The notes below the pieces were generated by a model, which was not told where the DNA came from, searched no databases, and worked only from the letters and a program-made list of their open reading frames with translations. The translations under genes and the position numbers were made by a program. Shown one piece after another: positions 4,115 through 28,200 of a stretch of DNA of 29,879 bases. The stretch is taken from the IMG/VR virus record IMGVR_UViG_3300009104_000084, positions 1-29,879 of that record, one strand, 5' to 3'. Within the stretch, counting starts at the first letter, position 1. Each line of letters starts with the position of its first letter. This DNA is from a virus.

Positions 4115-5645
4115 CTTATTTGAAGCCGCGTGGGAGGCTGTGTATGATGTCGAAAAGGGATTTTTCGATGATTTCAAGGCCGCAAGGCAGCATTACAACA
4201 CGCAGAGAGTCGCGCAGGACGCACACAACAGAGTATATGCCAATGCACTCCAGCAATTATGGAGAGAGAAAGCCCCCGGCCTCCCTACTATGGATGAGTA
4301 TCGGGCCGCCTTGCACAACGATGCGCTTTACCCAGAATCGGCACAAATAACAGAGGACGACTCCCCAGACGACTCCCCAGACGACCCTCCAATGGGCGTG
4401 GAACAAGCATTACAGATTCTCGCACCGGATCCACCCGAAGGTGTCGTAGTGCCGGATGTTGATGAGATAGTCGTGCCAAAAGAGGCCGAACAAATTAGTG
4501 AGCCTCCGGTGGAAACGGGCGAATCAACCCCTCCATCAGAGCGTATAACAGAACAAATCAGTAAGCCTCCAAAACCGCCTGAAGGCGCAACGGCTCCAGA
4601 GCCGGGTGATATTGTTGATACGACTGAAACCCTGCCCGAATCTGAGCCGGAGCCACTTGATGATGATGCGACCCCTACGAATGAATCGGAATTAGATGAT
4701 TTTGCCGAAGAAGTTGCAGGTCAGCCCAGACCGACAGAGCAAACGGGCTTTCAATTCCCAACGTCGCAAGACAAATTGACTGGCCATAAGCACGAAGGAG
4801 GTCTGAGACAAGCCCAGACGAGTCTCACTGATTCGCCAATGGAGGCATTACAACACGCAGAGAAAGTCCCTTTGATGGATGTTCAAGGCAATCCTGTCAA
4901 AATGGGCAAACGGACTGGTTGGTATGCTCGTATGAGTAAATCCGGCAGAGGTGTGGAGGTGTTCAACGAAGCAGAACCAAAGGAGGCATGGCCAGTTGAG
5001 GATGTTATGAGGACTGCTGGTGTGACTAATCAGTGGGGCAGCCCTGTGAATCTTCCAAGTGGCACACCCCAATTACCCACAAAGAAAATCGGCCCTGCAA
5101 CAAGCGGGAATTGGATTCATCCCGCTAAAAGAAAAGCGAAACATATACAGGATCATTCAACAAGAGGTATGACCGAAATGCGCGATGGAGAACGGGTATT
5201 AGGAGAAGCAGGGCTGAAGGAGATGGATAAGCGACGGAGAGCCGTGGAGAGTGAAACCCGAAACCGGAAACCCGTAGGAACGGGCGTCTATTATCCAATG
5301 CCCGGAACCTATGCATTAGATCGAAAAACGGGCGAGAAGATCGCAAGCGAATCAATGGCTGTGGATGATGCATGGACTGTTGTGAAGAACCCTCACGCTA
5401 ATCCATTCACTGATTTCAATAGTGTTCTTGCTATCAATGAGCAGAAACCGCCCGAAAGAGCATTTACACCCTCAGACCCAATAATCATGAAGGAGGAAAC
5501 GCCGTTGCAGAAACTCAGACAGAATGGATTTGATATGAATCAGGGCGATAATTTGTCGTTATTGCCGTCCAATATGCTTCTGGATGAGGATATGGGGATA
5601 CAGGATAATATGAGTCTGCTACCTACGGGGTGGCGGAATGAGTGA
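4101..5645 (+). CDS. Acidic Pro-rich protein carrying AW-x-VVK motif
   Basis: This 514-residue protein has no recognised family. I chose the ATG at 4101 because GGAGG at 4087-4091 is properly spaced and the overlap with the previous gene is then only 14 bases. A longer open frame begins upstream at 4008. The N-terminus (LFEAAWEAVYDVEKG) and residues 421-431 (VDDAWTVVKNP) resemble the N-terminus of the 9966 gene product. The middle third is acidic and Pro-rich, with DDSP repeats and paired EQIS(E/K)PP segments, and is probably disordered. The C-terminus repeats DNLSLLP/DNMSLLP about 20 residues apart. The stop overlaps the terminase start. Repeated short peptides on disordered tethers would suit binding to several copies of a partner, but this is inference. 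Confidence 0.68.
   Translation: MPTDDLFEAAWEAVYDVEKGFFDDFKAARQHYNTQRVAQDAHNRVYANALQQLWREKAPGLPTMDEYRAALHNDALYPESAQITEDDSPDDSPDDPPMGVEQALQILAPDPPEGVVVPDVDEIVVPKEAEQISEPPVETGESTPPSERITEQISKPPKPPEGATAPEPGDIVDTTETLPESEPEPLDDDATPTNESELDDFAEEVAGQPRPTEQTGFQFPTSQDKLTGHKHEGGLRQAQTSLTDSPMEALQHAEKVPLMDVQGNPVKMGKRTGWYARMSKSGRGVEVFNEAEPKEAWPVEDVMRTAGVTNQWGSPVNLPSGTPQLPTKKIGPATSGNWIHPAKRKAKHIQDHSTRGMTEMRDGERVLGEAGLKEMDKRRRAVESETRNRKPVGTGVYYPMPGTYALDRKTGEKIASESMAVDDAWTVVKNPHANPFTDFNSVLAINEQKPPERAFTPSDPIIMKEETPLQKLRQNGFDMNQGDNLSLLPSNMLLDEDMGIQDNMSLLPTGWRNE
4356..4385 (+). repeat. 12-bp tandem repeat coding DDSP
   Basis: The unit gacgactcccca is present twice head to tail and then partly a third time. It encodes Asp-Asp-Ser-Pro in the acidic linker of the surrounding gene and probably expanded by replication slippage. 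Confidence 0.85.
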
Positions 5646-7053
5646 GGGCGTCCTTCAACTAACCAGTAAAGTCGATTTCGACATGGGGAAGCGCGATTTT
5701 CGATTCTTCTTTGAGGACATATGTGGCTTTCAATTGACGCCTTTTCACAAAGAGTGGTTCGACAATTCCGAGTCGAATAACAAAATCTGTATCATAGCCA
5801 GCCGTGACCACGGCAAATCAGTATTCTTCAGAGTCTATATCCTATGGAAGATGGCGTATAACCCCGGAACAGAGGTTCTATTCTTCAGTCACAGCCAACA
5901 TCAGTCCATAGACCATATGGGCAAGATGGATGAGTTGATTATGACAACACCCGCGTTGGCTCATCTCAAACCTGCTCGTGGTTGGGCTAAACAATTATTC
6001 CGATTCACCAACAAGTCCTCCATCCGCGCTATGTCTATCGGCAAAGCGGTTCGTGGGGCGCACCCTGACATAGTGGTGCTTGACGATATACTGTCCAGTG
6101 AAGCCGATACTCAACTCAAGTCGATATCGACGTGGTTTTACACCGCACTGCTACCCGTTCTTCACCACTCTGCCCAGTTATGTGTAGTGGGGACTCCGTT
6201 CTCATTTACAGATCTCTATTCCGAATTGAGGGGTTTGAATGGGTATTGCGTCAATGAGTATCCTGCAATTAACGAAGAAACAGGTGATTGCTTATGGCCT
6301 GAAAGATGGAACTTGGACGCATTGAACGTGAGAAGGGGCGAAATGACCTCCATTGCATTTACTCGTGAATATCTGTGCAAACCCATAGCCAGTGAATCCA
6401 GTCTATTCCCAGAGGAGATGCTTGAATTGGCAAAGGACGATTCGATGGCACTGTCCTATTATCCTGTTTCAGATGAATCATTGAATTATTACGTTGGTTG
6501 GGATCCTGCAATAAGCGCAGATAGAAGGGCGGACTATACTTGCATGATGGTTATAGCGATGGACGAGAATCGGCACAAACGCATCGTTCATGTCCATCAT
6601 GAGAAAGGGATGGATTTCAATTCACAGATAGACAAGATAATCGAACTCAATGCCCGATTCAACCCCGTTATAATCGAATTGGAAACTAACAACTTTGCTA
6701 TGGCATTCAATCAAGTATTGAGAGAAATCAGTGATTTGCCCATTAAGCCATTCAATATGAATCGTATGAAGAAGGAAGCATTGATTCATTCGCTTCAACT
6801 TCATTTTGAACAGAAACATCTCGCTATTCCGTTCTTGGATGAAGGTTCCACGAAGCGTCATATGACGGCCCTTATGTCTGAATTATCTTACTTCACGATG
6901 CTCGATAATGGTAAGATGGAAAGCCTCGGAGCGCACGATGATATGGTAATCGCGCTCGCACTTGCTGTGCAAGCCACGAAGGAGTATCGAGAGAATATAG
7001 TTATCCTCGACGGTGCGGTCTGGCAAAAGCGATTAGGGTGGTCAGATGCATAG
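5638..7053 (+). CDS. terL: Terminase large subunit (packaging ATPase-nuclease)
   Basis: This is the motor that pumps viral DNA into the empty head through the portal and cuts it to length. The N-terminal ATPase shows a terminase-type Walker A, ASRDHGKS at 54-61 (Lys60), a Walker B with D149/D150 in IVVLDDI, and the coupling motif VVGTPF at 183-188. The C-terminal RNase-H-like nuclease shows D289 in GWDPA, an acidic IIELETNN segment (E347/E349) and D434/D435 in GAHDDM. These are the three acidic positions expected for two-metal cleavage. At 471 residues it is normal length and intact. The ATG overlaps the stop of the previous gene by eight bases, and the stop overlaps the next start. The small-subunit partner is not recognisable by family; the next gene is a positional candidate. 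Confidence 0.96.
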   Translation: MSEGVLQLTSKVDFDMGKRDFRFFFEDICGFQLTPFHKEWFDNSESNNKICIIASRDHGKSVFFRVYILWKMAYNPGTEVLFFSHSQHQSIDHMGKMDELIMTTPALAHLKPARGWAKQLFRFTNKSSIRAMSIGKAVRGAHPDIVVLDDILSSEADTQLKSISTWFYTALLPVLHHSAQLCVVGTPFSFTDLYSELRGLNGYCVNEYPAINEETGDCLWPERWNLDALNVRRGEMTSIAFTREYLCKPIASESSLFPEEMLELAKDDSMALSYYPVSDESLNYYVGWDPAISADRRADYTCMMVIAMDENRHKRIVHVHHEKGMDFNSQIDKIIELNARFNPVIIELETNNFAMAFNQVLREISDLPIKPFNMNRMKKEALIHSLQLHFEQKHLAIPFLDEGSTKRHMTALMSELSYFTMLDNGKMESLGAHDDMVIALALAVQATKEYRENIVILDGAVWQKRLGWSDA

Positions 7054-8296
7054 AGATTACCTCATACCAATGCAAGGCATTGAAAGCCTCGCTGACTCGC
7101 TGTATAAACTGAATGAGGAGGAGCAATTGGCCGCCGACGAAACAAGGATGGCCCAAGAGCGGCTTACAGCAGCGCAAGAAAAGCAGCGAAACGCCGCCCA
7201 AAAGCCAGTTGATACTCGTCAAGATGCAGATATAGAGGGGATGGATATGGAAGGAAGTGGCCCCCCGACGGATCAAGAAGGCACGACTCTGCCCCCAGAA
7301 GCCCCATTACCTCCATTCCAGCGTTCATGGTTCATTGAAAACTTCGGAGTCACAGGGAGCGAATTGACGGAGATTTTAGTCAAAGCCAATGATTTAGTGA
7401 CTTTGGATGCTATTCAGCCCCTGCTTAGACTGGAAAAAGAGGCGATACTCGCGCACTTTGTCGGTGTCTCTCCTTCTTTGGTGAATGATTTGCCGATGAC
7501 AGATAAGGATTACGACGCATTGAATAAGAATGCAGAGCGGTTGGATTTGCCGTTTAGGAGATTCGTCAAGTGTTGGACTTCTTCGGATGACGGGGGTAAG
7601 GCAGATGCAGAGAGTTTGTGGCGCACTACTATTGACAAATCTGAACGCTTGTCTAATAGAGAACGGAATATACTGCTCAAATGCAAAGTCATTCTCGACC
7701 AAAGAGGTGCTTTGAACGCCCAGACACTAAAATCATATGGCGTTCAAGCCAGTCCTGCCGAGATATCATCACTCATCAAATCACATGGTTTCCTATACGA
7801 TATCATATCAGTAGGCCAATTTAGCAAATCAGTAGGCCGTGGGCTATTCTATGACGTGAGAAGGCGTGAGGTATTGCTCAAAGATGCAGATCGTTTCATA
7901 GCCGGATTGATAGAAAACAACAGTATATTCAAGATGGACGCACGTTTCTATCCTCGACTTGAAGTAAGATTTGCAGCCCCTACTGCATCATGGTATGCTT
8001 CGGCTCTTAAGCGAGAAATGGGAGTTGAGAACATCAAAACTCAAGGGATGAATCTTATCTTTGAGGGAGAACAAGCAGTTTTGAAGGCATTGGAAGTATC
8101 TATGCCTCATCTTAATGGCAATTCGCCCGATGCCACAAGGATGCTGAAAGCGTTGCAGGGTGATGAAAATGCACTCATTATTGTAGCATATGACTCCTCT
8201 AAACCGGAAGATAGGAGCCGAATACTACGAAAACACAATATCTCAACCGATGACTTGGAAAACATACGAGAGGAGGTGATGGCTGTTGGCAGTTGA
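7046..8296 (+). CDS. Degenerate LAGLIDADG-like domain protein; TerS candidate
   Basis: This 416-residue protein starts with a helical, Gln/Ala/Glu-rich coiled-coil-like segment (about 20-55) and a Pro-rich linker. A helical middle follows, with a possible helix-turn-helix around residues 225-250. Residues about 281-352 resemble one LAGLIDADG homing-endonuclease domain: IAGLIENNS (285-293) sits where LAGLIDADG would be. It is followed by a YPRLEVRF strand, a helix, an NIKTQGMNLIFEG hairpin and a helix ending near MPHL, which is the usual strand-helix order of that fold. The catalytic Asp of the motif is Asn292 here, so cleavage activity is unlikely and DNA binding is more plausible. It lies between the terminase and the portal, where small terminases or HNH proteins often sit. 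The fold call is from visual pattern only. Confidence 0.72.
   Translation: MHRDYLIPMQGIESLADSLYKLNEEEQLAADETRMAQERLTAAQEKQRNAAQKPVDTRQDADIEGMDMEGSGPPTDQEGTTLPPEAPLPPFQRSWFIENFGVTGSELTEILVKANDLVTLDAIQPLLRLEKEAILAHFVGVSPSLVNDLPMTDKDYDALNKNAERLDLPFRRFVKCWTSSDDGGKADAESLWRTTIDKSERLSNRERNILLKCKVILDQRGALNAQTLKSYGVQASPAEISSLIKSHGFLYDIISVGQFSKSVGRGLFYDVRRREVLLKDADRFIAGLIENNSIFKMDARFYPRLEVRFAAPTASWYASALKREMGVENIKTQGMNLIFEGEQAVLKALEVSMPHLNGNSPDATRMLKALQGDENALIIVAYDSSKPEDRSRILRKHNISTDDLENIREEVMAVGS
8272..8280 (+). promoter_or_regulatory. Strong ribosome site fixing a TTG start
   Basis: GGAGGTGAT matches the 3' end of 16S rRNA over nine bases and ends five bases before TTG at 8286. The nearby ATG at 8279 is in the frame of the upstream gene, so this site decides the portal start. 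Confidence 0.75.
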
Positions 8297-9965
8297 TGAA
8301 AAGAGAATGGAACGGCTATTCTCAGCCATTGGAATGGATATGGAGCGTCATAGCACTCCTATCCCTTCTATGCCTCTATTCACTGCTGGTGTCCAAGAGC
8401 CTCCTTTGCTTCAAGGGATTACCATTCCTGCTCTTTATGCTGCTGCCTATGAGTGCATGGTTTTACGCTCGATTCTTCAGCATTTATCTGTTGAAACATT
8501 CCGAAAGGGATGGGATTGGAAGGCGAAGTTTGTAGTAAGGTGTAAGGGGTGCGAACAGGAATACCAGCAACAGGTCGATGAATGCAAATCATGTGGTGGC
8601 GAGGTGAGGAAGGCAGATCGTGGCCAGATAGAGTATGCCGAAGGAGTATTGAACAACAATAACCGAATGACTCAGACTTTCATAGATATCCTCAGAGAAG
8701 TGGAGATGGATTTGAACATAGTCGATGATGCGTATCTCGTATTGACGAAGGAATACTTCGTTGATCCCGATTCCAAGAAACCGATGTTCTTCAGAATCAG
8801 GGAGGTATCGAGAGCAGACCCTATATTCATGCGTATTATGTCTGATAAGCGGGGAATAAGAGGCGGAACCCAATATACGAGCCTCATAGACCGTTCTTAC
8901 AGAACAAGTGACCCCACGAAGGCTTGCCCGATTTCAGGGATGCCTGTCGTCCCTATCCATTACATCAATCTCGCGGGCGTAGGTAATGGGCAAGTCTATA
9001 CTGAAGGTGAAATTATCCACATTAGTAAGTGGTCGCCATCGAAACTGTATGGGCGTAGTCCTGTCGCTACCATGTGGCGGCAAGTGAATACACTCATCGC
9101 TATGGATAACTATGTCTATTCTGCATATCAGAAGCGCAGAATGCCTCGTGGAGTCATGGTAATCAAATCATCCAATATGGAAACAGTTGAGAGGACAGCG
9201 AGGAACATTCAGGAGCATCTTGAGCGTGACCCTAACTACATCCCGACTATCGGTGTCGAAACCGAGTCTGGTCGAGGTGGGCTTGAGTATGTCCGTATGA
9301 TGGATACGCTTGAGGAACTCCAATATATCCCTATCAAAGACGACATTCGTCAGCGTATATCGGCATTCTATGGTGTATCTAACGTGTTCATGAATGATGT
9401 TTCAGGCGGCGGCTTGAATAATGAGGGTATGCAGATTGTAGTCAGTAATAGGTCGATTTCATACTCTCAATCAGTGTATAACAGGCTTGCATTCCCTCAA
9501 TTACTGGACGCATTCGGCATAACTGAATGGGAAATCACATTGACTCCTCATGAGGAGGAGGATGAAATCATGCAACTACGCCGCGATGAGATGGCTATCC
9601 GCAACATGATGCAGATGAAGCAGTCTGGTTATGAGGCGAAACTGCGCGATCAGATAGACGATAAGTATCTCACATTCGACTTCAGGGAACCAACTGAGGA
9701 AGAAGTGGAGGCGGCGAAGCAAGAGCAGATGGCCGCAGAGGCGGCTAAGGGTGGAGGTGGAGGCGCACCTCCGGCGGCTCCCGTTCAGAAATCTGATGAA
9801 CCATGTCCGACCTGTGGAAAAGAGATTAAACCCCATAATCAATGGCCGTGTGCTTGCTACACAGGATGGCGAGAAACAGCAGATTGCCCGAAATGTAAGA
9901 CTGAGGAAGATGTCGCCACTCTCGATGAGTTTGGCGGTATGTGTGAAGATTGCAGGGGTGAATAG
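8286..9965 (+). CDS. Portal protein with three predicted zinc sites
   Basis: The portal is a ring at one vertex of the head through which DNA enters and leaves. Family support comes from the 559-residue length, the position after the terminase, and the portal-like core: a WSPSKLYGRSP segment around 245-260, a long central helix, ISAFYGVSNVFM around residues 355-365, and a NRSISYSQ helix near 395. A zinc ribbon, CxxC-x10-CxxC (C86, C89, C100, C103), is inserted near the N-terminus. The C-terminus adds eight Cys (C507, C510, C522, C524, C534, C537, C553, C556), enough for two more zinc sites, after a Gly-rich linker. The start is TTG at 8286, chosen because AGGAGGTGAT at 8271-8280 ends five bases before it; it lies inside the end of the previous gene. 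Confidence 0.9.
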   Translation: MAVDEKRMERLFSAIGMDMERHSTPIPSMPLFTAGVQEPPLLQGITIPALYAAAYECMVLRSILQHLSVETFRKGWDWKAKFVVRCKGCEQEYQQQVDECKSCGGEVRKADRGQIEYAEGVLNNNNRMTQTFIDILREVEMDLNIVDDAYLVLTKEYFVDPDSKKPMFFRIREVSRADPIFMRIMSDKRGIRGGTQYTSLIDRSYRTSDPTKACPISGMPVVPIHYINLAGVGNGQVYTEGEIIHISKWSPSKLYGRSPVATMWRQVNTLIAMDNYVYSAYQKRRMPRGVMVIKSSNMETVERTARNIQEHLERDPNYIPTIGVETESGRGGLEYVRMMDTLEELQYIPIKDDIRQRISAFYGVSNVFMNDVSGGGLNNEGMQIVVSNRSISYSQSVYNRLAFPQLLDAFGITEWEITLTPHEEEDEIMQLRRDEMAIRNMMQMKQSGYEAKLRDQIDDKYLTFDFREPTEEEVEAAKQEQMAAEAAKGGGGGAPPAAPVQKSDEPCPTCGKEIKPHNQWPCACYTGWRETADCPKCKTEEDVATLDEFGGMCEDCRGE

Positions 9966-12110: not shown

Positions 12111-15100
12111 ATGGCTGAAGATCTCCCAAGAAACCGCACGGATGTCGTCCTATCATGCATAATTGGGCTTGAACCCCCTGTCGTTAGGTATCTCGATTCG
12201 CTGAATGGCCAGCCATTCACTAAGGCTGACATGGCCGCATTGGCCTCTGCTTCTGGCGTTGCGCCATATTCAATGAGGGACTTGAACGAGCCTATCCCTC
12301 CTTCGGAGATGGTTATCCCTCAAGATTTCCAATCATACCTTGCAGGACATAGCAGGATTTCCACATCATATTCTAACGATTGGCCGATGGCCGATGGGAG
12401 TAATCGCTTTGGCGAGCATCATCCGTTTGGGATGGCTTCTAATTGCTGCCCACTTCTTCATGGAGCGGCTCATGGAGAACCAGAGTATATTCCGCTCCTA
12501 TTCGATTTCATTGGAGAGGCTGCTGAACAGCACCGGGACGCCGAGCGGCAGAATAAGTTGCATCATGATGAGACTTCGCTTTACGGGCAGCCTACCGAAT
12601 CAATGCTCGATCTGTATAAGCGAGGCAGGGAGCAAAGCGGATATGGCGATGACGATGAATGGGAGGCTGCTAAAACCGATGAATTAACTCATAGATTCGG
12701 TTTATTGCCCTATTTGTTTGGTTTGGAATGGAATACAGAGGAGCAAAGGGATGCGTTTTTCGACATCATTGGGACGATGGCCTCATCGGAAAAGGCCGAT
12801 TCTCCCAATGCGAGAAAGGCGATGAATGATATTCAGCGAAAAACAGGCATTACATGGGATAGGGCATTGCGTAGTTGGAGAGATAGATTCACTCCGATGA
12901 AGGCATGGTGGATGCGGCCGAGCGACCAACACGGCCCCACTTCATCAGGAGATAACTCGATTACATCACCATATGTTGAGGGTGAAAAAGGGCATAATCA
13001 CCATTGGTGGGAGCCATTTCAGGCATGGGGTGGTGTCGGCAGAGATAGCGAATCATTGTATTCTTTGTTATCACAATCCTATCCCAAGATATTCAATGAC
13101 GGTTGGTTAGGTCGTTTTCTAACTGACGGGGTTGAGATAGAGGGGCCGCATATGCTCAGTGGTTCTCATTTTCCGGCCACTAATTCTAATTCCGGCTATG
13201 AATCGACCCTTACCAGACCATCGACAAATCTTGACTTTGAACGGCGGCAATCGAACTGGCGGCACGTCGCCAATGGGCATCAAAATCATCCATCGAATCC
13301 CCAAGAAGGTATGATGAATATCCCTGCGGATGCTTTGCAGATGAGTAAATTGGGGCGTAATATCGCATCAATTTCGGAAATGGGGACTCCGCGAAGCGGC
13401 CGTTTGCGCGAGAACCACCCTAATTCACAACAAGAATATCACGATCTTCACAACCGCCACTACTTGAACACTGATGAAGCACTGATGGGGCTTGTCGGAG
13501 AAATGGCCAGTAAGATTGGAAAAGAACATGGAATTGAGCATTTGGTATCGAATGGCACGGACATCAACCAAAACACCGTTGCTGCGGGCAATCGCGCTCA
13601 GTTAGCCGCCGCCGCCAATTATCGTTTGATGCGAAAGAAAGGGATTTCGCCTAAGAGCATCGACATACCGATGGTGAGTGGTAAGGGCGGTCTAACGACG
13701 GAAGCGGGCAAGTTTGGCCCGGTTCATCCCACATCAGAAGCCATAGCCCCCCCTATATTCAATACAGGCAATACCGATGCATGGAGTCATGATATGCCCG
13801 CTACGCTCGCATGGAGGTGGGATAGAGATTTAGATGATGTATCATTCTCAGTCAAAGATGAACCATTCACAATAGCCCAGAGAACACCTCATGCTGGTTT
13901 CCATTCAAAGATAGACCCTTCATTTGCGACTAAGCAAGTGACTAACAAGCAACGGGAAATCAACGCCCTGTCCAATCACCCGTATGGATACTCATCCTTA
14001 TCTTTCGATTTACACAAATCCGATGATGATTATGAGCCAACAGGGGTGTTTGAATCCCTCATTGAACCGGGACATATCCTACGGGATCTTGATGATATTG
14101 ATGGGTTGAAGGGCTTTAGCGGAGAATGGGTGGTTCAAAAGAAGCCCAAAGGAAAGCACGTTCTCGTCAAGAAATCTGGGAAAAGCATTGAACCGATGAG
14201 TCTGCCCAGTAAAGTGAAGAAATCACTCAAAGATAGCATCAAGGGCGATATGATAATCGACGGCTATGTCGATGGAGATGTCCTCACAGTTGTTGATTTA
14301 TTGGTGCATAAGGACACGGATATGCACATGGAACCACTATCAGATAGGGTCGATGTTTTGAGGACATTGTATCAAAGCACAGACAATGTGCATTTTCCAT
14401 CGCCCATTTCATGCGTTAGCACGGACGAAGAAGGGCTAATCAAGACAATAGCCAATTTCGATAGAGATAACCTATTGATTCGTGATGCCCATTCGACATT
14501 CATGAAAGGCAAAGAGGTTCATCCTAAATGGATACTATACGCGCAAGATGATATTAGCAAACAAATCCCACTCCCTCCATTACCCGAACTTAGCATACGA
14601 GGCTCAGAGATCATATTGGAATATCCTTCAATCTATCAACCAGTGGTGGTTAAGACAGAAATGGATGCGATAGGAATGTTTGTTTCGGGATACGAGGGGT
14701 TGCCCCATCTTGTCAAACAGGCACAGACTCAATTCGGGATATGGAGTCCCGTAGCGGCTCTTTTCATGAAAGAAGGTGCTGCCGGAGGTGCTACTGGTGC
14801 ATTTACATCGGGCGATGTAGGGGGTGGTTCAAAGGCACTCCATTCTATTCCGTCTGCCAGAAAGCGACCAGTAAAGCGAAAATCGCTCGACAAAGCCCCA
14901 GAGGTTGTCACGGAAGGAGAAGGCGATGATGACGATATTGTATCCGCTATCATGAGAAGGGCGCGAAAAGCAATCACTGATGATGATAAGGCTTTGACTG
15001 AGGAAGATTTGTTGTCAAGTGTTGATGGTTTGAGGGCTGAACATCTGAAGCGTTTTGCTGGTGAATATGGCCTTGAACAGACTGAAGATGGTCTATGGAC

Positions 15101-15482
15101 AGTTAATGAGGCCATAGATGATGATGTAGTTGAAATGCCGGATGAAATCGAGAAGTTTGCATTTCCGCGTATGAATCGCGCTTCGCCCGATGGAGGAGCG
15201 TGGTCGGGAATGCAAGCAGATATCACAATGCCCACTGGCCCGACGGAGATTACTGATGAGGAGAATACTACTTTTGGCGATCCGCGACAAGGAGAGGAAC
15301 AGGCGGATGCCACTGAATTATTCAAACCAATGCAGATTCGTATTCAAACTGAGGATGGCGATGCCATTCTTGAAGTGAATGAAAATCGTGCAATTGTGCG
15401 CTTTCCGCGTAAAGAGAAAGGGTTTGAGGAAAACGAGAAGGATGTCGAACCCGCTATTCGGGATGATGATGCGTTGTTATGA
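12111..15482 (+). CDS. 1123-residue protein with degenerate ligase-like domain
   Basis: This is the largest complete gene in the window; a good ribosome site (AGGTGG) precedes the ATG. Residues 1 to about 640 match nothing I recognise and are rich in His, Trp and Asn. Residues about 655-840 resemble the nucleotidyltransferase core of ATP-dependent DNA ligases. K678 in KPKG stands at the motif I KxDG lysine. GDMIIDGYVDGDVLTVVDLL (712-731) matches the motif III/IIIa region, and PLSDRVDVLRTLY the helix that follows it. N787-R791 (NLLIR) replaces the motif IV EGxxxK, and W807 precedes a ILYA that replaces the motif V lysines. Most catalytic residues except K678 are therefore lost, so DNA or nucleotide binding is likelier than ligation. 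The C-terminal 250 residues are acidic and linker-like. It lies directly before the prohead protease. Confidence 0.78.
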   Translation: MAEDLPRNRTDVVLSCIIGLEPPVVRYLDSLNGQPFTKADMAALASASGVAPYSMRDLNEPIPPSEMVIPQDFQSYLAGHSRISTSYSNDWPMADGSNRFGEHHPFGMASNCCPLLHGAAHGEPEYIPLLFDFIGEAAEQHRDAERQNKLHHDETSLYGQPTESMLDLYKRGREQSGYGDDDEWEAAKTDELTHRFGLLPYLFGLEWNTEEQRDAFFDIIGTMASSEKADSPNARKAMNDIQRKTGITWDRALRSWRDRFTPMKAWWMRPSDQHGPTSSGDNSITSPYVEGEKGHNHHWWEPFQAWGGVGRDSESLYSLLSQSYPKIFNDGWLGRFLTDGVEIEGPHMLSGSHFPATNSNSGYESTLTRPSTNLDFERRQSNWRHVANGHQNHPSNPQEGMMNIPADALQMSKLGRNIASISEMGTPRSGRLRENHPNSQQEYHDLHNRHYLNTDEALMGLVGEMASKIGKEHGIEHLVSNGTDINQNTVAAGNRAQLAAAANYRLMRKKGISPKSIDIPMVSGKGGLTTEAGKFGPVHPTSEAIAPPIFNTGNTDAWSHDMPATLAWRWDRDLDDVSFSVKDEPFTIAQRTPHAGFHSKIDPSFATKQVTNKQREINALSNHPYGYSSLSFDLHKSDDDYEPTGVFESLIEPGHILRDLDDIDGLKGFSGEWVVQKKPKGKHVLVKKSGKSIEPMSLPSKVKKSLKDSIKGDMIIDGYVDGDVLTVVDLLVHKDTDMHMEPLSDRVDVLRTLYQSTDNVHFPSPISCVSTDEEGLIKTIANFDRDNLLIRDAHSTFMKGKEVHPKWILYAQDDISKQIPLPPLPELSIRGSEIILEYPSIYQPVVVKTEMDAIGMFVSGYEGLPHLVKQAQTQFGIWSPVAALFMKEGAAGGATGAFTSGDVGGGSKALHSIPSARKRPVKRKSLDKAPEVVTEGEGDDDDIVSAIMRRARKAITDDDKALTEEDLLSSVDGLRAEHLKRFAGEYGLEQTEDGLWTVNEAIDDDVVEMPDEIEKFAFPRMNRASPDGGAWSGMQADITMPTGPTEITDEENTTFGDPRQGEEQADATELFKPMQIRIQTEDGDAILEVNENRAIVRFPRKEKGFEENEKDVEPAIRDDDALL

Positions 15483-15538: not shown

Positions 15539-16918
15539 ATGGCTACGGCACAGATGCTCCAACCCTCCATTAGTTGGTCTGCTTTCGGTTCTGATTTCAT
15601 CTTGAAGCAGGATGCAGATGGCGATTTGTATGTAGCCGGATACGCAAGCGTGGATATGGTGGATAAGCAGGGAGACAGGATCCCTTCAGCCGCATTGAAA
15701 AAGGCATTCAATAGTTTCATGAATAACAAGGCGTATAGAAACGTGCAACTCGCGCACAGTGGAATACAAGTGGGTGAAGTTGTTGATTCCTATTCAGATT
15801 CACAAGGTCGTGTATGGAAATCCGAAGTGGATGACATGGGCCTATTCGTCGTATGCAAGATACGCAGCGACATTCAGAAAGCACGAGAAGTGCAAAAGCA
15901 GGTGCGCGACGGAGAACTCCGCGCCTTTTCAATTGGCGGACAGGCATTGTTCCGCGTCACAAAAACCACTCCCGAATTAGGAACCCACCGTGAGATCACC
16001 GACCTTGAGTTGCATGAAATCACCCTTTGTAAGAAGGGCATCAACCCAGAGGCGCGATACACAATCCTAAAGATGGACGAAACTGAAGAAGTGAGCAAAA
16101 TGACAGACAGCGAAGCATTGACTGAAATAAGAGATAATCTGGCCGATGTGCTAAAGGCACTCGACAAGAACGAGGAAAAGACTGAGGAGAAGTCCGAGGA
16201 GAAGTCCGAAGAAAAGACTGAGGAGAAGTCCGATACCGAGAAGTCGCACGATGATGGTGCGGTTGCTTACATCGACACTCTTGAGAAGTTCGCACACGAG
16301 CAGGGAGTTAATCTCGATGCTGTTCGCGCACACTTCGGATTGGAGAAGGCATACCTGCAAGAAGGCAGTGGTGGCTACTCGCACCGTGGAATGGGCGACG
16401 AGGTTGGAAGTGGCGAAAGCGCATCCGAGCCTACATACCCATCACTATCGGCTCCCGGTGGCAACAAGTATGTCATCAAGCAACCCGGTGTAGGCAATAT
16501 GGCTTACAACGGGCCAAAGGGCAACAAGAATGTCATCAAGGCCGATGAAATCACACCAGAAGGACTGGAGCGTGGCTACCGTGCATACGCTTCCATCCGC
16601 GATGAGGACGCATTGAAGGCTCTTGTCAAGCAAGACTGGGAGAATCGCTACGACGCTGAGACTGCTCAAGCACTTGAAGTCCAGAAGGCAAACGATTACT
16701 CCGGTCAGATTGCGGCACTAAAGGCTGAATTGGCCAGTGTCAAAACTGAGTCCGCTGAAATCCAGAAGTCTGCATCACCCGCAGTAAGTGACATACGCAT
16801 TCCAAGCCACGACGAGTTCGCCGCAATGGGGACTGGTCTTGATGGATGGAGAGCCACAGAGGAGTTGGCTCGCCGCGCTCTAAGGGGCGACGACCCGGAG
16901 GTCGCAAACCGAGGCTAA
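15539..16918 (+). CDS. Prohead protease fused to scaffold-like C-terminus
   Basis: Residues 1 to about 180 fit the HK97-type prohead protease family (U35): a GYASVDMVDKQGDRI strand region near 34-48, the catalytic His73 in LAHSG, the nucleophile Ser131 in AFSIGG, and the terminal ELHEITLCKKGINPEA signature. This serine protease trims scaffold and capsid proteins inside the prohead. Residues after 188 look like scaffold: a Leu-rich helix, EEKTEEKS repeats, a charged helical stretch, two GNKxVIK copies, and a final coiled coil (IAALKAELASVKTESAEIQ). The gene ends 38 bases before the capsid gene. Codons in the C-terminal part shift to the C/G-ending style of the capsid gene. An in-frame ATG at 16100 (M188) could produce scaffold alone, as lambda does inside its protease gene. 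Confidence 0.88.
   Translation: MATAQMLQPSISWSAFGSDFILKQDADGDLYVAGYASVDMVDKQGDRIPSAALKKAFNSFMNNKAYRNVQLAHSGIQVGEVVDSYSDSQGRVWKSEVDDMGLFVVCKIRSDIQKAREVQKQVRDGELRAFSIGGQALFRVTKTTPELGTHREITDLELHEITLCKKGINPEARYTILKMDETEEVSKMTDSEALTEIRDNLADVLKALDKNEEKTEEKSEEKSEEKTEEKSDTEKSHDDGAVAYIDTLEKFAHEQGVNLDAVRAHFGLEKAYLQEGSGGYSHRGMGDEVGSGESASEPTYPSLSAPGGNKYVIKQPGVGNMAYNGPKGNKNVIKADEITPEGLERGYRAYASIRDEDALKALVKQDWENRYDAETAQALEVQKANDYSGQIAALKAELASVKTESAEIQKSASPAVSDIRIPSHDEFAAMGTGLDGWRATEELARRALRGDDPEVANRG
16172..16236 (+). repeat. Tandem repeats coding EEKTEEKS
   Basis: Imperfect 12-base units (gaggagaagtcc and gaggaaaagact types) repeat about five times and encode a Glu/Lys-rich linker between the protease and the scaffold-like part. 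Confidence 0.8.
16461..16541 (+). repeat. Paired GNKxVIK repeat
   Basis: Two near-identical 21-base copies (ggcaacaagtatgtcatcaag and the same with aat for tat) lie 60 bases apart in the scaffold-like part. They could be protease cleavage sites or capsid-binding peptides. Confidence 0.7.
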
Positions 16919-16956: not shown

Positions 16957-18117
16957 ATGAGTGGATCAAGAGGATACATCAGGACAATAGAGGACATGGA
17001 GAGGCTATACTACGGTGCGGGCGCAGGTGCGAACGCATGGGCTTACTCTGGAACAGACTTGCTAAAGGCTGACTCGCCATTGGTAAGTAGCACAACAGGA
17101 ACCTACCAAGCGATCTTTGGACGCAAAGTATGGTCACAACTCAATCAGGAGTTCAATGCATTTAGCATACTCCCCAAGAAGCCGTGGGAGAAGTCTGGAT
17201 GGAGGGTCGTCACCGACAAGCCTGACAGGGCAAAGGGTGGCGGTGTTGCTGAGAATGCAACCCTACCAGAATCGACCAAGCCGACCTTCGCAGAGGTCAG
17301 CACCAAGCCTAAGACCGTGGCTCACACCTTCGACCTAAGCGAGACAGCAATGTTCCTCGCCGACAAGGACGACGGACTTGGAGATGCAAGAGCAGTAATG
17401 AAGATGGAGATGGCAAAGCACCACGCCGAGCATATCAACGTCATGCTCTTGCAGGATCTCGATACCCCCGCAGGGAACAACTACGAATCCCTCGACAGGT
17501 GTCTTTCATCGGCTTTCGTTGAGACAGCCTCCTTTGGAGATGTCAGCGCAATAACCGATCACAACCAATACAACATCACCCGCTCCACTGGTTCAGCACG
17601 TCAGTGGTATGATTCCAACGTGGATGCAGGTTCGACTGGGACAGAGAGAGCATTGAGCCTCAATGTCATGGACGGAATGTTCCGAAGCGTTTGGGAGCGT
17701 GGTGGTCAGCCAAAGGTCATCCTAACTGGCTACGACACACTGGAGAAGGTTCAGCAACTACTCCAGCCACAGCAGAGATTCACTGAGATGAAGCGCGTCG
17801 TTCCCGGCGTGAATGGAGTCAAGGGTGTTCCGGGTATGGAGGCGGGCTTCGTGGTCGCTACCTACAACGGCGTCCCACTAATTCCATCGAAGGATGTCCA
17901 TGCCGAATCCGGCGGACTATCCCGAATGTATTACATCGACTCTGATTACCTATACTTCTCGACAGCCAAGCCTACACTATACCACGAGTCGGGCATTGAA
18001 ACCGGAGATCCTTTCGGAATCAACAGACTCGGACAGATGGGTATGTTCCACACAATGGGCGAACTATGGCAACTGTTCTATGGAGCGCATGGCAAAGTGA
18101 GGGACTTGAGTGCCTGA
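16957..18117 (+). CDS. Major capsid protein, HK97-type
   Basis: This is the head shell subunit, 386 residues, directly after the protease/scaffold. Features of HK97-fold capsid proteins are visible: an N-terminal arm, an E-loop-like segment (GWRVVTDKPDRAKGGGVAENATLPES), a long helix rich in Ala/His/Met (ARAVMKMEMAKHHAEHINVMLLQDL) as the spine helix, an A-domain with NVMDGMFRSVWERGGQPKVILTGYDTLEKV, and a C-terminal MYYIDSDYLYF strand pair. The strong site AGGAGG at 16943-16948 precedes the ATG. Codons are biased to C/G endings, as expected of the most abundant virion protein. More than half of its Arg codons are AGA or AGG. There is no 100-residue delta domain; scaffold function probably resides in the preceding gene. 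Confidence 0.9.
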   Translation: MSGSRGYIRTIEDMERLYYGAGAGANAWAYSGTDLLKADSPLVSSTTGTYQAIFGRKVWSQLNQEFNAFSILPKKPWEKSGWRVVTDKPDRAKGGGVAENATLPESTKPTFAEVSTKPKTVAHTFDLSETAMFLADKDDGLGDARAVMKMEMAKHHAEHINVMLLQDLDTPAGNNYESLDRCLSSAFVETASFGDVSAITDHNQYNITRSTGSARQWYDSNVDAGSTGTERALSLNVMDGMFRSVWERGGQPKVILTGYDTLEKVQQLLQPQQRFTEMKRVVPGVNGVKGVPGMEAGFVVATYNGVPLIPSKDVHAESGGLSRMYYIDSDYLYFSTAKPTLYHESGIETGDPFGINRLGQMGMFHTMGELWQLFYGAHGKVRDLSA

Positions 18118-22028: not shown

Positions 22029-22292
22029 GTGGATGATTACAGTAAGATGGTAAAACGGAGAGGAAAGGCATTAGACGCCCTCTCCAAAGCAATAGATGAC
22101 CTTATCCTCAAAGAACCGGCTATGGCTAAAGTCATAGAACAGAGGGAGAGAGAGGGGCCGCTACCAGCGGGAATTGAGATGTCGGACGAGGACATCAATA
22201 GATTGGTTGAGATTCAGATGAAACAGAATCCTTACCGAATGGCTTTAGAACAAAGACGGAGAGAGTTGGACGAGGTGATTCAGAATGGCTGA
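22029..22292 (+). CDS. Small charged helical protein
   Basis: This 87-residue protein starts with GTG three bases after the adaptor stop. It is almost entirely helical and charged (KRRGKALDALSKAIDDLIL; ALEQRRRELDEVIQ) with a Pro/Gly break in the middle. The stop overlaps the fibre start (ATGGCTGA). Its place between adaptor and terminator-like domain suggests a neck or tail assembly factor. No family is recognised. Confidence 0.68.
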   Translation: MDDYSKMVKRRGKALDALSKAIDDLILKEPAMAKVIEQREREGPLPAGIEMSDEDINRLVEIQMKQNPYRMALEQRRRELDEVIQNG

Positions 22293-25200
22293 TGCGATAT
22301 CTGCGGTGCGTGATCTGATTGAATCTAATTGGACTAAGCCGCCGAAACCGTCTATTGAGGATATCGCTGTTCTTGACAGAGGCGACGCCAAGCGCGTTAG
22401 GATGTTGGATAACGATGTTATTCGTATCTTTGAGACTGCTCACAATGAAGCGCAACCTGAGTTGCTCTATGATTATGTGAATAGACACGTCAATATCACT
22501 CTCGATGTGAGGACGGTCAAGAGCAGGGAACGATTATCGGAACTTAGAACCGAGGTTCGTAGGATTCTCCACGCATTCAGAAAGGGCGACGGGGTTAATT
22601 TTGACCGTTTGATATTCAAGACAAGGACTGATCTCTCAGATCGGTCAAAAAAACTGTTCAGATATACAATTCAAGCAGAAGTAGTGACTTTTGCTTTGGT
22701 TGCAGGGACTGACGATACAGTAGTAAATCCATTTACTGGTGTCGTTTCGGCAAGCACTACCTATCAAACATATGATACAGGTCTGACAGAGATAGCGAAC
22801 CTCACACCGACCAACGGCTATGTCATCATTGGCGATGGTTCATCATGGACTACTTCGGCAGTGGCTGGCGACATAACTGCCGTCACAGCCGGGACGGGGT
22901 TGAGTGGTGGTGGGGTGACAGGCGATGTCACATTGAATGTCAGTGGCCTCACCGTATCAGAATTAGCCGCAGGTAGCCTTCAGATAAGTTCTGAGGCGTT
23001 TGCAGACAACGACACTACCCTGATGACCTCGGCGGCAATACAGGACAAGATACTGTCCTATGGCTATACCACGGCAGTAGGTGATATTACGGCCGTCACG
23101 GCCGGGTCTGGGCTGACTGGAGGGGGGTCAAGTGGCGACCTCACAGTCACTCTCGATCTCAAAGACGAAGATAACATGGCCTCCAATTCTGCAACACACG
23201 CGGCATCTCAGCAATCAATCAAGGCGTATGTGGATGCAGAAGTCGCGGGATTAGTCGATTCTGCCCCGGCGGCATTGAATACCTTGAACGAATTAGCCGC
23301 TTCGCTAAATGACGATGCCAACTTTTCGACTACGATTTCCACCGCATTGGGCCTTAGAGTCCGGGTGGATACCAACGGTCAATCCCTGACGAACACCCAG
23401 AAGGCCAATGCTCGCACAAACATAGCCGTTGATGTCGCGGGAACTGATAACTCAACTAATGTCACATTAGCAGGAAGCAGAGACTATCTCACTATTAGCG
23501 GGCAGGAGATAACTCGTGGCGTAATCGACATCTCGGATGATACAAATCTTGCTGTATCGGCTCCAATCACACTTTCTGGAGACACTATCGGCCTTGCAGA
23601 TCCAGCAAATCTAAGTCAATTAACAGAGAGTTCGGATGCTACGGACGACAAGATACTCCTTTGGGACGAATCAGCATCCTCTTGGAAATACATGACAGTT
23701 GATGATTTACAGGATTCCATAGATACCTCGACCCTCGCGGCCAATGACGCTACAATTACCCTAACCGCAGGGACGGGGTTGAGTGGTGGTGGTGATTTTA
23801 CCACGAATCAAAGTGGTAATGAAACTCTCACATTCAATGTCGGCGGCCTCACAATCGCAGAATTGGCCGCAGGTGCTATTCTCCTCTCGTCAGAGTCCTT
23901 TGTCGATTCGGATACTCAGTTGATGACTGCTAAGGCGATAGCAGATAAGATTGAGTCATATGGCTACACTACTCAAGTAGGTGATATCACTGGAGTCACC
24001 GCCGGGGCTGGCCTCAGTGGGGGAGGCAATTCTGGTGCGCTTACGCTAAATCTGAGTCATTTGGGCATTGAATCCCTATCTGACCCCAATGATGACCGTA
24101 TCTTGTTCTGGGATGACTCGGCAGGGGCAACAGCATTCTTGGATATCGGTAGCAATTTAACCATAACTGGCACGACAATCGCGGCTACGGATACCAATAC
24201 AACCTATTCGGCTGGCACGGGCCTCACTTTATCCGGCACAACATTCAGCGTATCGGATCCCGCGAATCTGGATGAATTGACTGAATCGGATGATAATCCA
24301 TCCGACAAGATACTCCTATGGGATGAATCTGCATCCGTATGGAAACACATGACGATAGATAATCTCGGCGATGCATTAGATGTCAGCACTACTTTGAATG
24401 CACTGACTGATGTGACGATAAGTAATCCAGCGGCAGGTCATGTCCTCGTCTATGACAATACCAATTCTATTTTTGAAAACACACCCTTGACAGCAGGTAG
24501 CAACATTTCGATAACTAATGCAGATGGCTCGATAACCCTCGCATCAACAGATACAAACACTCAACTTTCAACAGAACAAGTCCAAGACATTGTTGGAGCA
24601 ATGTTCTCATCCAATACAGAAACGCGCATTTCTGCGACATATGAGGATGGCGATGGCACAATAGATCTCGTTGTCGATGACATGACTACGAACACCCAAC
24701 TCTCAACTGAACAGGTGCAGGATATTGTCGGAGCAATGTTCTCATCCAATACAGAAACGAGGGTTTCTGCGACATATGAGGACGGAGATGGAACCATTGA
24801 CCTCGTTGTCGATGACATGACTGCGAATACAAATCAACTGACTACTTTTGTGATACGAGATGATGATGATGACTCCAAGACTGTCGCCCATAACAAATAT
24901 CTCAAGTTCGCATCTGCCACTGGGGCCGCGGGGACGAATTGGTCGGGTTCCGGCACTACTGGCGACCCGTGGATTATGACAATAACAAATCCAGATACCA
25001 CTTATTCAGTGGGCGATGGCGGCCTCACTCAAAACAATTTCACGAATACTCTGAAAACGAAACTGGACGGCATAGAAGTGTCGGCGGATGTGACAGATAA
25101 AGCGAATGTCGGTTCTGCATTGGCATCTCTTGATGGGACTGATACCCTATACATCGGCGATGCAGGAAATGATGCGACAATTAGAGTCCGAGGTAATTTC

Positions 25201-28200
25201 TATGTGGATGGAACGACCACAAGCGTGAATCAAACAGAAGTGAATGTGCAAAACGCATTCGTGTTTGAGGGAGCAACCTCTGATAATTATGAGACTACTC
25301 TGACTATTACCGATCCAACCGCAGATAGAACGATTACATTGCCTAATGCAAGCGGCACGATTTCTCTATCAGATACTCAACTTTCAACAGAACAGGTGCA
25401 GGATATTGTAGGTGCTATGTTTGCTTCCAATACAGAAACGCGGATTTCAGCAACATACGAAGATGGTGACGGGACTATTGACCTCGTTGTCGATGACATG
25501 ACTGCGAACACCCAACTTTCAACAGAACAGGTGCAGGATATTGTAGGCGCAATGTTCTCTGGAAATACGGAAACCAACACCGCCGTCACCTATGATGATA
25601 GCGACGGGACTATTGATGTAGTCACAACCTTAGATGGCGGGCCTCTTTCCACTGAAGCCATCCAAGATATTGTAGGTGCAATGTTCTCAAGCAATACAGA
25701 AACGAGTATTACCGCAACTTATCAAGACAGCGACGGAACAATAGATCTTGTCGTTTTGCCGGGTTCCGATCAAGGTGTTGTCGTCAATACAGGCGGGGCA
25801 TTGAATACCACTTCCTATATGCATCTTGCCTTCGGTGGCAGTTCAAGCGGCGACCCACGCGGTATTGCTCTTGGGCATACTACGGGTGGAAATAATTTTC
25901 CCGGTTGGGTCACGACCTACAATGACAATAATTTACTGTTAGACACCAATAAGGGAACGAATACTGGAAAAATAGAGATTTTTGAGGGGTCGAATAACAA
26001 TATCGCCATAACACCTCACGGAACAGGTAAGATAATTCTTGATGGTTTATCATGGCCCAATGCCGATGGAACGGCAAACTATGTCCTCCAAACCAATGGA
26101 TCAGGTGCGCTTTCGTGGGCGGCGCAGACCAGCAACACATGGCGAACTGTCACGGTAGCGGGTAATGCGAGTCTAACCGATAGTGAGGCTTTGACTTTTA
26201 ATGCTGGCTCTAATGTATCCATTACCGAACAGAACGGGTCTGTGACTATTGCTTCCACAGATACCAATACCACATATAGCGCAGGAAATGGCCTGACTCT
26301 ATCTGGCACTACATTCACACTTGCAGATCCGGCTACTGGCACAACAATTGATGAATCGACTGCGGATCCTGCTGATAGATTGCCAATTTGGGATGAAAGT
26401 GCTTCTTCATGGAAATACATCACTATTGATGATTTGCAGGATGAGATAGACACTGCATCAGGAGGCACAGTCACGGAAGTCACCGTAGGAGGTGGCCTCG
26501 ATATCTCAAATGGCACATCAACACCGAGTATTACTCTCGATTTCGCGGAACTTTCTGCATCAGGCACTCTTGTAGGCACTGATGATTTAGTTGTAATTGA
26601 TGATGCTGCAACCCGTAAAACCCAGATAGACACTATCCCCCTCTCGATTTTCAGCAACGACGCGGGATGGACATCGAATACAGGCGACATTACTGGAGTC
26701 ACGGCCGGGGCGGGGTTGAGTGGTGGGGGGGCCAGCGGCTCAGTCACCCTCTCATTAGATGACCCTGCGAATCTTTCTCAACTGACTGAATCGACTGACG
26801 CCACCGATGACAAGATCCTGCTTTGGGATGAAGATGCGGGTTCATGGAAATACATGACATTAGATGACCTTCAAGATTCGATAGACACCACAGCATCGGG
26901 TGGCGCGGGAGAGGCATTCAAGACTATCTCAGTGAGCGGTCAGGACGATGTAGTAGCGGATGGGGCAACAGACACTCTAACGCTCGCAGGTGGCTCAAAT
27001 GTCACCATCACTACTACTGCTGGTTCAGATACCATCACCTTTGCATCGGCAGATACGAACACTCAACTCACGGATGAATATGTCCAAGATTTGGTTGGGG
27101 CCATGTTCAGTAGCAATACGGAAACTAATACGACAGTCACATATCAAGACGGCGACGGAACGATAGATGTAGTCACGACTCTTGATGGCGCACCCCTCAC
27201 GACAGAGGCGGTTCAAGACATAGTAGGGGCTATGTTCTCATCGAATACTGAAACACGAGTTGCCGTCACATATCAAGACGGAGATGGAACCATTGATGTT
27301 GTTGTCGATGACATGACGGCGAATGACAACACTTGGAGAACAGTCACAGCGGGCGGCAATACTCTCTCCACAAGTGAAACCCTCGCCTTCACCGCCGGGT
27401 CAAATGTGACTATTACTGAGAGTGGGGGTGCGGTCACGATTGCTTCGACAGATACCGACACTAACACATGGAGGACAGTCACAGCAGGGGGCAACACTCT
27501 CTCCACCAGCGAAACCCTCGCCTTTACTGCCGGGTCGAATGTGTCTATTACCGAGAGCGGAGGTGCAGTCACAATCGCTTCAACTGATACAAATACCACA
27601 TATTCAGTAGGAGATGGTGGGCTTACTGAATACAACTTTACAAGCACTCTTAGGAGCAAACTTCTCGGTGTCGAATCGGATGCTGATATCACAGATAAGG
27701 CCAATGTTAGCGCAGCCCTCGCTTCACTCACAGGCGATGACACACTTTACATTGGAGATTCGGGGGATGATACTACTGTAAGAGTTCGTGGTAATTTCTA
27801 TGTGGATGGAACAACAACCAGTGTGAATCAAACCGAAGTGAATGTGCAAAATGCCTTCGTCTTTGAGGGGGCTACTGCCGATGCTTATGAAACAACATTG
27901 ACTATCACAGATCCAACAGCAGATAGAACGATTACGCTACCTAATGCAAGTGGAACTGTATCGCTGTCTGATACTCAACTCTCAACCGAGCAAGTTCAGG
28001 ACATAGTAGGTGCAATGTTTAGCAGCAATACAGAAACGCGCATTTCCGCTACCTACGAAGATGGCGACGGGACGATTGATCTTGTTGTCGATGATATGAC
28101 CGCGAATGACAATACATGGCGAACAGTCACGGCAGGTGGTAATACTCTATCCACCAGTGAAACCCTTGCCTTTACTGCGGGTTCCAACGTGACCATTACT

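Follow-up and report, generated by a model that had tools for sequence, protein, structure and literature searches.

Does the gene listed as the DNA ligase of magroviruses encode a ligase at all and, if it does not, what would a ligase-like domain be doing inside a large protein encoded among the head genes? Magroviruses are known solely from metagenomics (PMC12999244) and have been credited with a DNA ligase in published lists (PMC10160649; PMC12999244). An "ATP-dependent DNA ligase" is annotated for them in PMC7318539 and PMC10160649 and in the ICTV profiles PMC10768690 and PMC12999244, all four of which treat it as an active member of the replication set. According to PMC7318539 it adjoins the prohead protease, a position that fits the open reading frame at 12111-15482 of the stretch analysed here, and the ligase of the literature is thus probably the 1123-aa head-module gene described below. 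The resemblance to ligases is itself already annotated in the literature; inactivity of the domain throughout the family, its place among the head genes of both clades, and the missing recognisable viral ligase did not turn up in the searchable literature.

The virus and its head-gene cluster

The window, meaning the whole stretch of DNA analysed, is a 29.9-kb virus record (IMGVR_UViG_3300009104_000084). The genes that matter here are:

5638-7053, terminase
7046-8296, unknown gene
8286-9965, + strand, portal protein (Pfam Phage_portal, 1.7e-11)
12111-15482, + strand, 1123-aa virion-module protein (ORF)
15539-16918, + strand, prohead serine protease (Pfam PF04586, Peptidase_S78, 2.8e-9)
16957-18117, + strand, major capsid protein (MCP), HK97-type (PHROG 24667, 2.1e-53)

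Five small genes separate the portal gene from that of the 1123-aa protein, which lies inside the head-gene cluster and adjoins the prohead protease, as a preliminary description of the window had pointed out.

The MCP shares 34% identity with its counterpart in haloarchaeal virus HCTV-1 and places the virus in the magrovirus/Druskaviridae group; IMG/VR contains 148 relatives, and 80 of these were retrieved for analysis. A homologue of the 1123-aa protein, 58% identical, is encoded on the 106-kb contig CACGHY010000002.1 (L099) of the Ca. Poseidoniales single-cell genome AG-422-I20. From the capsid kinship and this homologue together, the window is identified as a magrovirus, that is, a virus of the Poseidoniales, which are abundant ocean archaea. 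About 110 close relatives of the 1123-aa protein, 37-79% identical to it, are present in IMG/VR, and homologues accompany the MCP gene in all 55 of the 55 loci with sufficient upstream sequence.

Two further observations concern the virus as a whole. The L099 contig looks like an almost complete magrovirus that was captured together with, or inside, the cell it infects, and as such provides direct host evidence. At the far end of the window, an ORF of at least 2531 aa (22285-29877) extends past the window end; its DNA is highly repetitive, with recurring caggatattgtaggtgcaatgttc-like units, and it apparently encodes a giant tail fibre.

Layout of the 1123-aa protein

Four regions can be distinguished along the protein:

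12111-14015, + strand, N-terminal helical region, residues 1-635 (AlphaFold pLDDT mostly 60-95)
14043-14555, + strand, nucleotidyltransferase (NTase) domain of a putatively dead ligase, residues ~645-815 (AlphaFold with Foldseek, Pfam)
14568-14726, + strand, short beta region following the NTase, residues ~820-872 (AlphaFold strands 826-862)
15036-15290, + strand, conserved C-terminal motif region, residues 976-1060 (conservation 0.62; model confidence mostly low)

The preliminary description had boxed the ligase-like domain at 14073-14631 (residues 655-841); the domain is real, but the box is shifted slightly in the 3' direction. It also spoke of a fusion to more than 600 unknown residues; in the N-terminal region, searches with 23 members gave no Pfam or PHROG match above noise; nor did Pfam or PHROG reveal a MuF or other recognised head or effector domain in the N- and C-terminal regions. 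The beta region at ~820-872 occupies the place of the ligase OB domain, being reduced in the window protein and OB-like in the sister clade described below. Mean pairwise identity is highest in the C-terminal motif (0.62), followed by the NTase (0.58), the N-terminal region (0.46) and the post-NTase stretch (0.41). The C-terminal motif region, which reads EYGLExTExGxWTVNEAIDDD ... GGAWSGMQADIT and is without known family, may serve the protease or the capsid as a site of docking or cleavage.

A sister clade with the same gene order

A second viral clade was found by way of its capsid protein, which is 64-67% identical. Its gene order of portal, big protein, protease and MCP matches that of the window, and its homologue of the 1123-aa protein reaches 1.9-2.4 kaa (loci L311-L366; for example 2724-8570 of L321). 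The domains of the two clades align by hhalign at 7e-46; between the clades homology covers profile columns 565-909 at 2e-43, and a weaker shared patch lies at residues 196-279 (2.4e-4). Behind the NTase of the sister clade comes an OB-like stretch, the same order as in ligases; this was recognised by sequence inspection, and the stretch matches no Pfam OB family. Some 1,450 residues precede the NTase in the sister-clade protein, mostly unmatched to the near clade, as we call the window's own.

Evidence for the ligase fold

Taken alone, the 1123-aa protein matched nothing in Pfam (E<=1), PHROGs or PDB sequences, and neither it nor its domain gave a meaningful tblastn match to annotated phages. 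Family alignments were therefore used. Pfam DNA_ligase_A_M (PF01068) was matched at E<=1 by 38 of 47 members, all below the cut-off, the best at 2.6e-4. The AlphaFold model of residues 636-832 has a pLDDT of 85, and its best Foldseek match in the PDB is the Thermococcus ligase 4eq5 (E 5.3e-8, TM 0.60), with archaeal ligases first; at E<=0.001 the PDB yields 91 matches, and every one of the first 37 is a ligase or a ligase complex. The best structural matches of the full-length model are again ligases. In BFVD the top match is A0A516LT18 (827 aa, E 8e-13).

Profile comparisons point the same way. Motifs IIIa-V were aligned by hhalign with those of 30 archaeal ligases (1.9e-4). The near-clade profile found no ligase among PDB sequences; with the sister-clade profile the top four matches are all archaeal DNA ligases, the best being 4eq5 again (E 0.0013), and in the HMMER alignment of that profile the ligase KYDGAR pairs with yPeGeR, which fixes the register of motif I. 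The preliminary description had allowed that the region might have an unrelated fold, or homologues that match no ligase; what was found is a ligase-like NTase core, with the motif spacing kept in the homologues. The domain is almost certainly derived from a ligase.

Loss of the catalytic residues

Residues were counted over 104 non-redundant domains, 83 from the near clade and 21 from the sister clade. The ligase motifs have these equivalents in the window protein:

14142-14159, + strand, motif I, K678-P-K-G-K-H; Lys not conserved, G681 and R/H683 conserved
14259-14270, + strand, motif III, D717-G-Y-V; Glu replaced (Y719), Glu in 0/104
14295-14321, + strand, motif IIIa, D729-L-L-V-H-K-D-T-D737; D729 in 104/104
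14466-14486, + strand, motif IV, D786-N-L-L-I-R791-D792; motif Lys replaced by an invariant Arg
14520-14540, + strand, motif V, H804-P-K-W807-I-L-Y; both Lys lost, H804 and W807 invariant

A motif I-like lysine, K678 in KPKG (codon 14142-14144), had been noted in the preliminary description and is present in the window sequence, but it is not conserved across the family. Position 678 in the near clade is K in 57 members, M in 22, and R and V in 2 each; in the sister clade it is Y, W, F, I or M, and K in none of the 21. The motif I Lys is thus missing from 47 of the 104 domains (26/83 and 21/21), so that K678 does not count among conserved catalytic residues. Mapped on the near-clade tree, position 678 shows at least six changes of state, and five gains or losses of Lys. 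A Lys at either 677 or 678 is found in 79 of the 83 near-clade members, leaving four with neither.

The losses reported for motifs III and V hold throughout: no member has the motif III Glu, and at the two motif V Lys positions 808 is V, I or T and 810 is Y, F or L in 104/104 (I808 and Y810 in the window). The motif IV acid, also said to be missing, is ambiguous: D786 aligns there in the window protein, but no more than about one relative in four has an acid at this site. Seven residues are the same in every one of the 104 domains (G681, D729, R746, R791, D792, H804 and W807); this, together with an NTase identity above that of its surroundings, indicates a domain under constraint rather than one in decay. 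Judged from its residues, the domain is very probably dead as a ligase, and both its fold and its inactivity are well supported by computation.

Ligases elsewhere in the virus and its host

In 36 other magrovirus contigs, a PF01068 search returned only the homologue of the 1123-aa protein, below the cut-off, and a PF01653 search returned nothing in 13 of the 36. With a local archaeal-ligase HMM, used unfiltered on four magrovirus contigs of 96-107 kb, the best match was again that homologue, at less than 15 bits, and no other ligase was seen; T7 ligase, as a control, scored only 20.7 bits with this HMM, so a very diverged second ligase could be missed. By these searches, the gene of the 1123-aa protein appears to be the sole ligase-like gene in magroviruses.

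An NAD+-dependent ligase is encoded by all 13 of the Poseidoniales genomes tested for it. PF01068 is found in 63 of 116 genomes drawn from the phylum of the Poseidoniales and in 0 of 26 Poseidoniales genomes; with the latter count and the NAD+-dependent ligase in 13/13, an origin of the domain from present Poseidoniales genomes is unlikely.

If the listed ligase gene does not encode a ligase, magroviruses probably rely on the NAD+-type ligase of the host for sealing, and the claim that they encode one of their own may need correcting: a gene from the near-complete replication set of very abundant marine archaeal viruses is suggested not to be a ligase.

Possible roles of the domain

A forerunner of the marine magroviruses may have captured an archaeal-type ATP-dependent DNA ligase, in which the NTase core was originally joined to an OB domain behind it. 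The ligase would then have lost its nick-sealing chemistry and been retained as a non-covalent binding module of a large protein encoded in the head cluster between portal and protease. That protein would be made late, with the head proteins, and would be located within the capsid or on its surface, close to the portal, as a minor or internal component; the remodelled pocket or the ligase-type surface would bind, without catalysing anything, either a nucleotide or DNA, the latter at an end, at a nick or as duplex in the portal region. Genome ends so held could be sealed after entry by the NAD+-dependent ligase of the host. This reading as a whole, a ligase-derived, non-catalytic binding module in a minor head protein, with presence in the virion, ligand and end-holding all conjectural, is the likeliest of those considered, and we give it about an even chance.

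Its parts differ in strength. The 1123-aa protein is probably a head or virion protein, a reading supported by its encoding in the head cluster and by its conservation with the MCP, at every locus that could be judged and in the same order in the sister clade; against this it counts that a gene adjoining head genes need not be packaged. Whether binding of DNA or of a nucleotide is the retained function we regard as evenly balanced. The slight acidity of the domain weighs against DNA binding (net charge -6 for the window NTase domain and about -3 for the near-clade domain, with -59 for the whole window protein), though archaeal ligases score about the same, averaging -3.6 across a similar stretch. 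The OB domain lets ligases close around DNA, and that the near clade is without most of it counts against a binding module. The preliminary description had proposed DNA clamping or end sensing in the head; of its interpretation, the dead ligase fold and the place of that fold in a head-cluster protein are supported, whereas clamping and sensing stay proposals. The most specific form of the idea, that a particle-borne pseudoenzyme clamps genome ends or nicks, or labels the end nearest the portal, and passes the ends on to the host NAD+-dependent ligase, is attractive but unlikely.

The ligase fold could instead be a purely structural scaffold, a rigid block of a minor capsid or portal-vertex protein that binds neither nucleic acid nor nucleotide. 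The loss of all catalytic residues, the reduced OB region and the acidity of the domain agree with this, as do the large size of the protein and its encoding between portal and protease. Yet polar or charged residues at the former active-site motifs, namely D729, R791, D792 and H804, never vary, which is more than a scaffold needs, and conservation around the old active site is above that of most of the remaining protein. We hold this possible, with perhaps one chance in four.

A virion-borne effector, ejected with the DNA and serving inside the host as decoy or sensor in the manner of polyvalent or MuF-linked effectors, with the dead NTase as target binder (for example of a nucleotide or cap-like ligand), seems rather improbable. 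Fusion of effectors to head proteins has precedents, MuF-linked ones among them, and the MuF of phage Mu itself bears an inactive PBECR domain (PMC5512222). Druskaviridae proteins at the equivalent gene position are annotated with zeta-toxin and ParB-nuclease domains, and the Pfam snurportin m3G-cap domain is matched in the sister clade at up to 3.8e-5. The 1123-aa protein is, however, without homology to the Druskaviridae protein, matches no MuF family, and has a domain whose conservation and vertical inheritance set it apart from swapped effector cassettes.

Less probable still is that the domain retains enzyme activity, whether as a ligase or as another nucleotidyltransferase, by way of catalytic residues at shifted positions (K677, for instance) or of a non-covalent reaction. 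In its favour are the Lys at 677 or 678 in most near-clade members, the likeness of KPEGKR to KxDGxR, and the standing of the gene as the only ligase-like one found in magrovirus genomes; set against these are the four near-clade members with Lys at neither site, the absence of K678 throughout the sister clade, and the uniform loss of the motif III Glu and motif V lysines. That the resemblance is a chance or modelling artefact, as the window protein's want of a Pfam match and the near-clade profile's failure to find a PDB ligase might suggest, is scarcely credible, given that AlphaFold with Foldseek, Pfam across members and the sister-clade profile against the PDB agree, in register, and that the OB-like continuation of the sister clade comes in the correct order.

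Comparison with known systems

With the ATP-dependent DNA ligases of archaea and eukaryotes (PF01068, e.g. 4eq5), the viral domain shares the NTase fold, the order and spacing of motifs I-V, the GxR of motif I (with Arg or His in the virus), the Asp of motif IIIa, ST[YF] between motifs IV and V and, in the sister clade only, an OB-like stretch after motif V. It differs in having neither the motif III Glu nor the motif V lysines and in a motif I Lys that is dispensable; the viral protein, moreover, has no recognised helical DNA-binding domain, and the NTase is embedded in a head-module protein of 1.1-2.4 kaa.

The zeta-toxin-annotated protein of the Druskaviridae (HCTV-1, HVTV-1, HCTV-5) is likewise encoded between portal and protease, in a structural gene cluster related to that of the window, and is of similar size, but its annotated domains are of kinase and ParB type, not of the ligase fold. 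Homology of the 1123-aa protein to these zeta proteins was rejected (hhalign E 0.86). The Druskaviridae zeta-toxin/ParB-nuclease proteins, of 1.2-1.3 kaa (2663-6295 of L083, 1458-5399 of L097 and 1999-5880 of L098), show ADP-ribosyltransferase-like stretches by eye.

Snurportin-1 uses a fold of the nucleotidyltransferase class for binding, not catalysis. Its m3G-cap-binding domain (PF21974) belongs to the same fold class as the viral domain, is among the Foldseek matches (3nby_B), and is weakly matched by 5 of 47 near-clade members (best 0.0023) and 6 of 18 sister-clade members (best 3.8e-5). It differs in being part of a eukaryotic nuclear-import adaptor, with cap binding as its own feature, and the viral domain is structurally closer to the DNA ligases. 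Reuse of a pseudoenzyme as such is a known kind of event; the magrovirus domain would be a clear case in which the head module of a tailed virus has taken over the fold of a DNA-repair enzyme but not its chemistry, with conservation across two deep clades, and it adds a correction to the published annotation.
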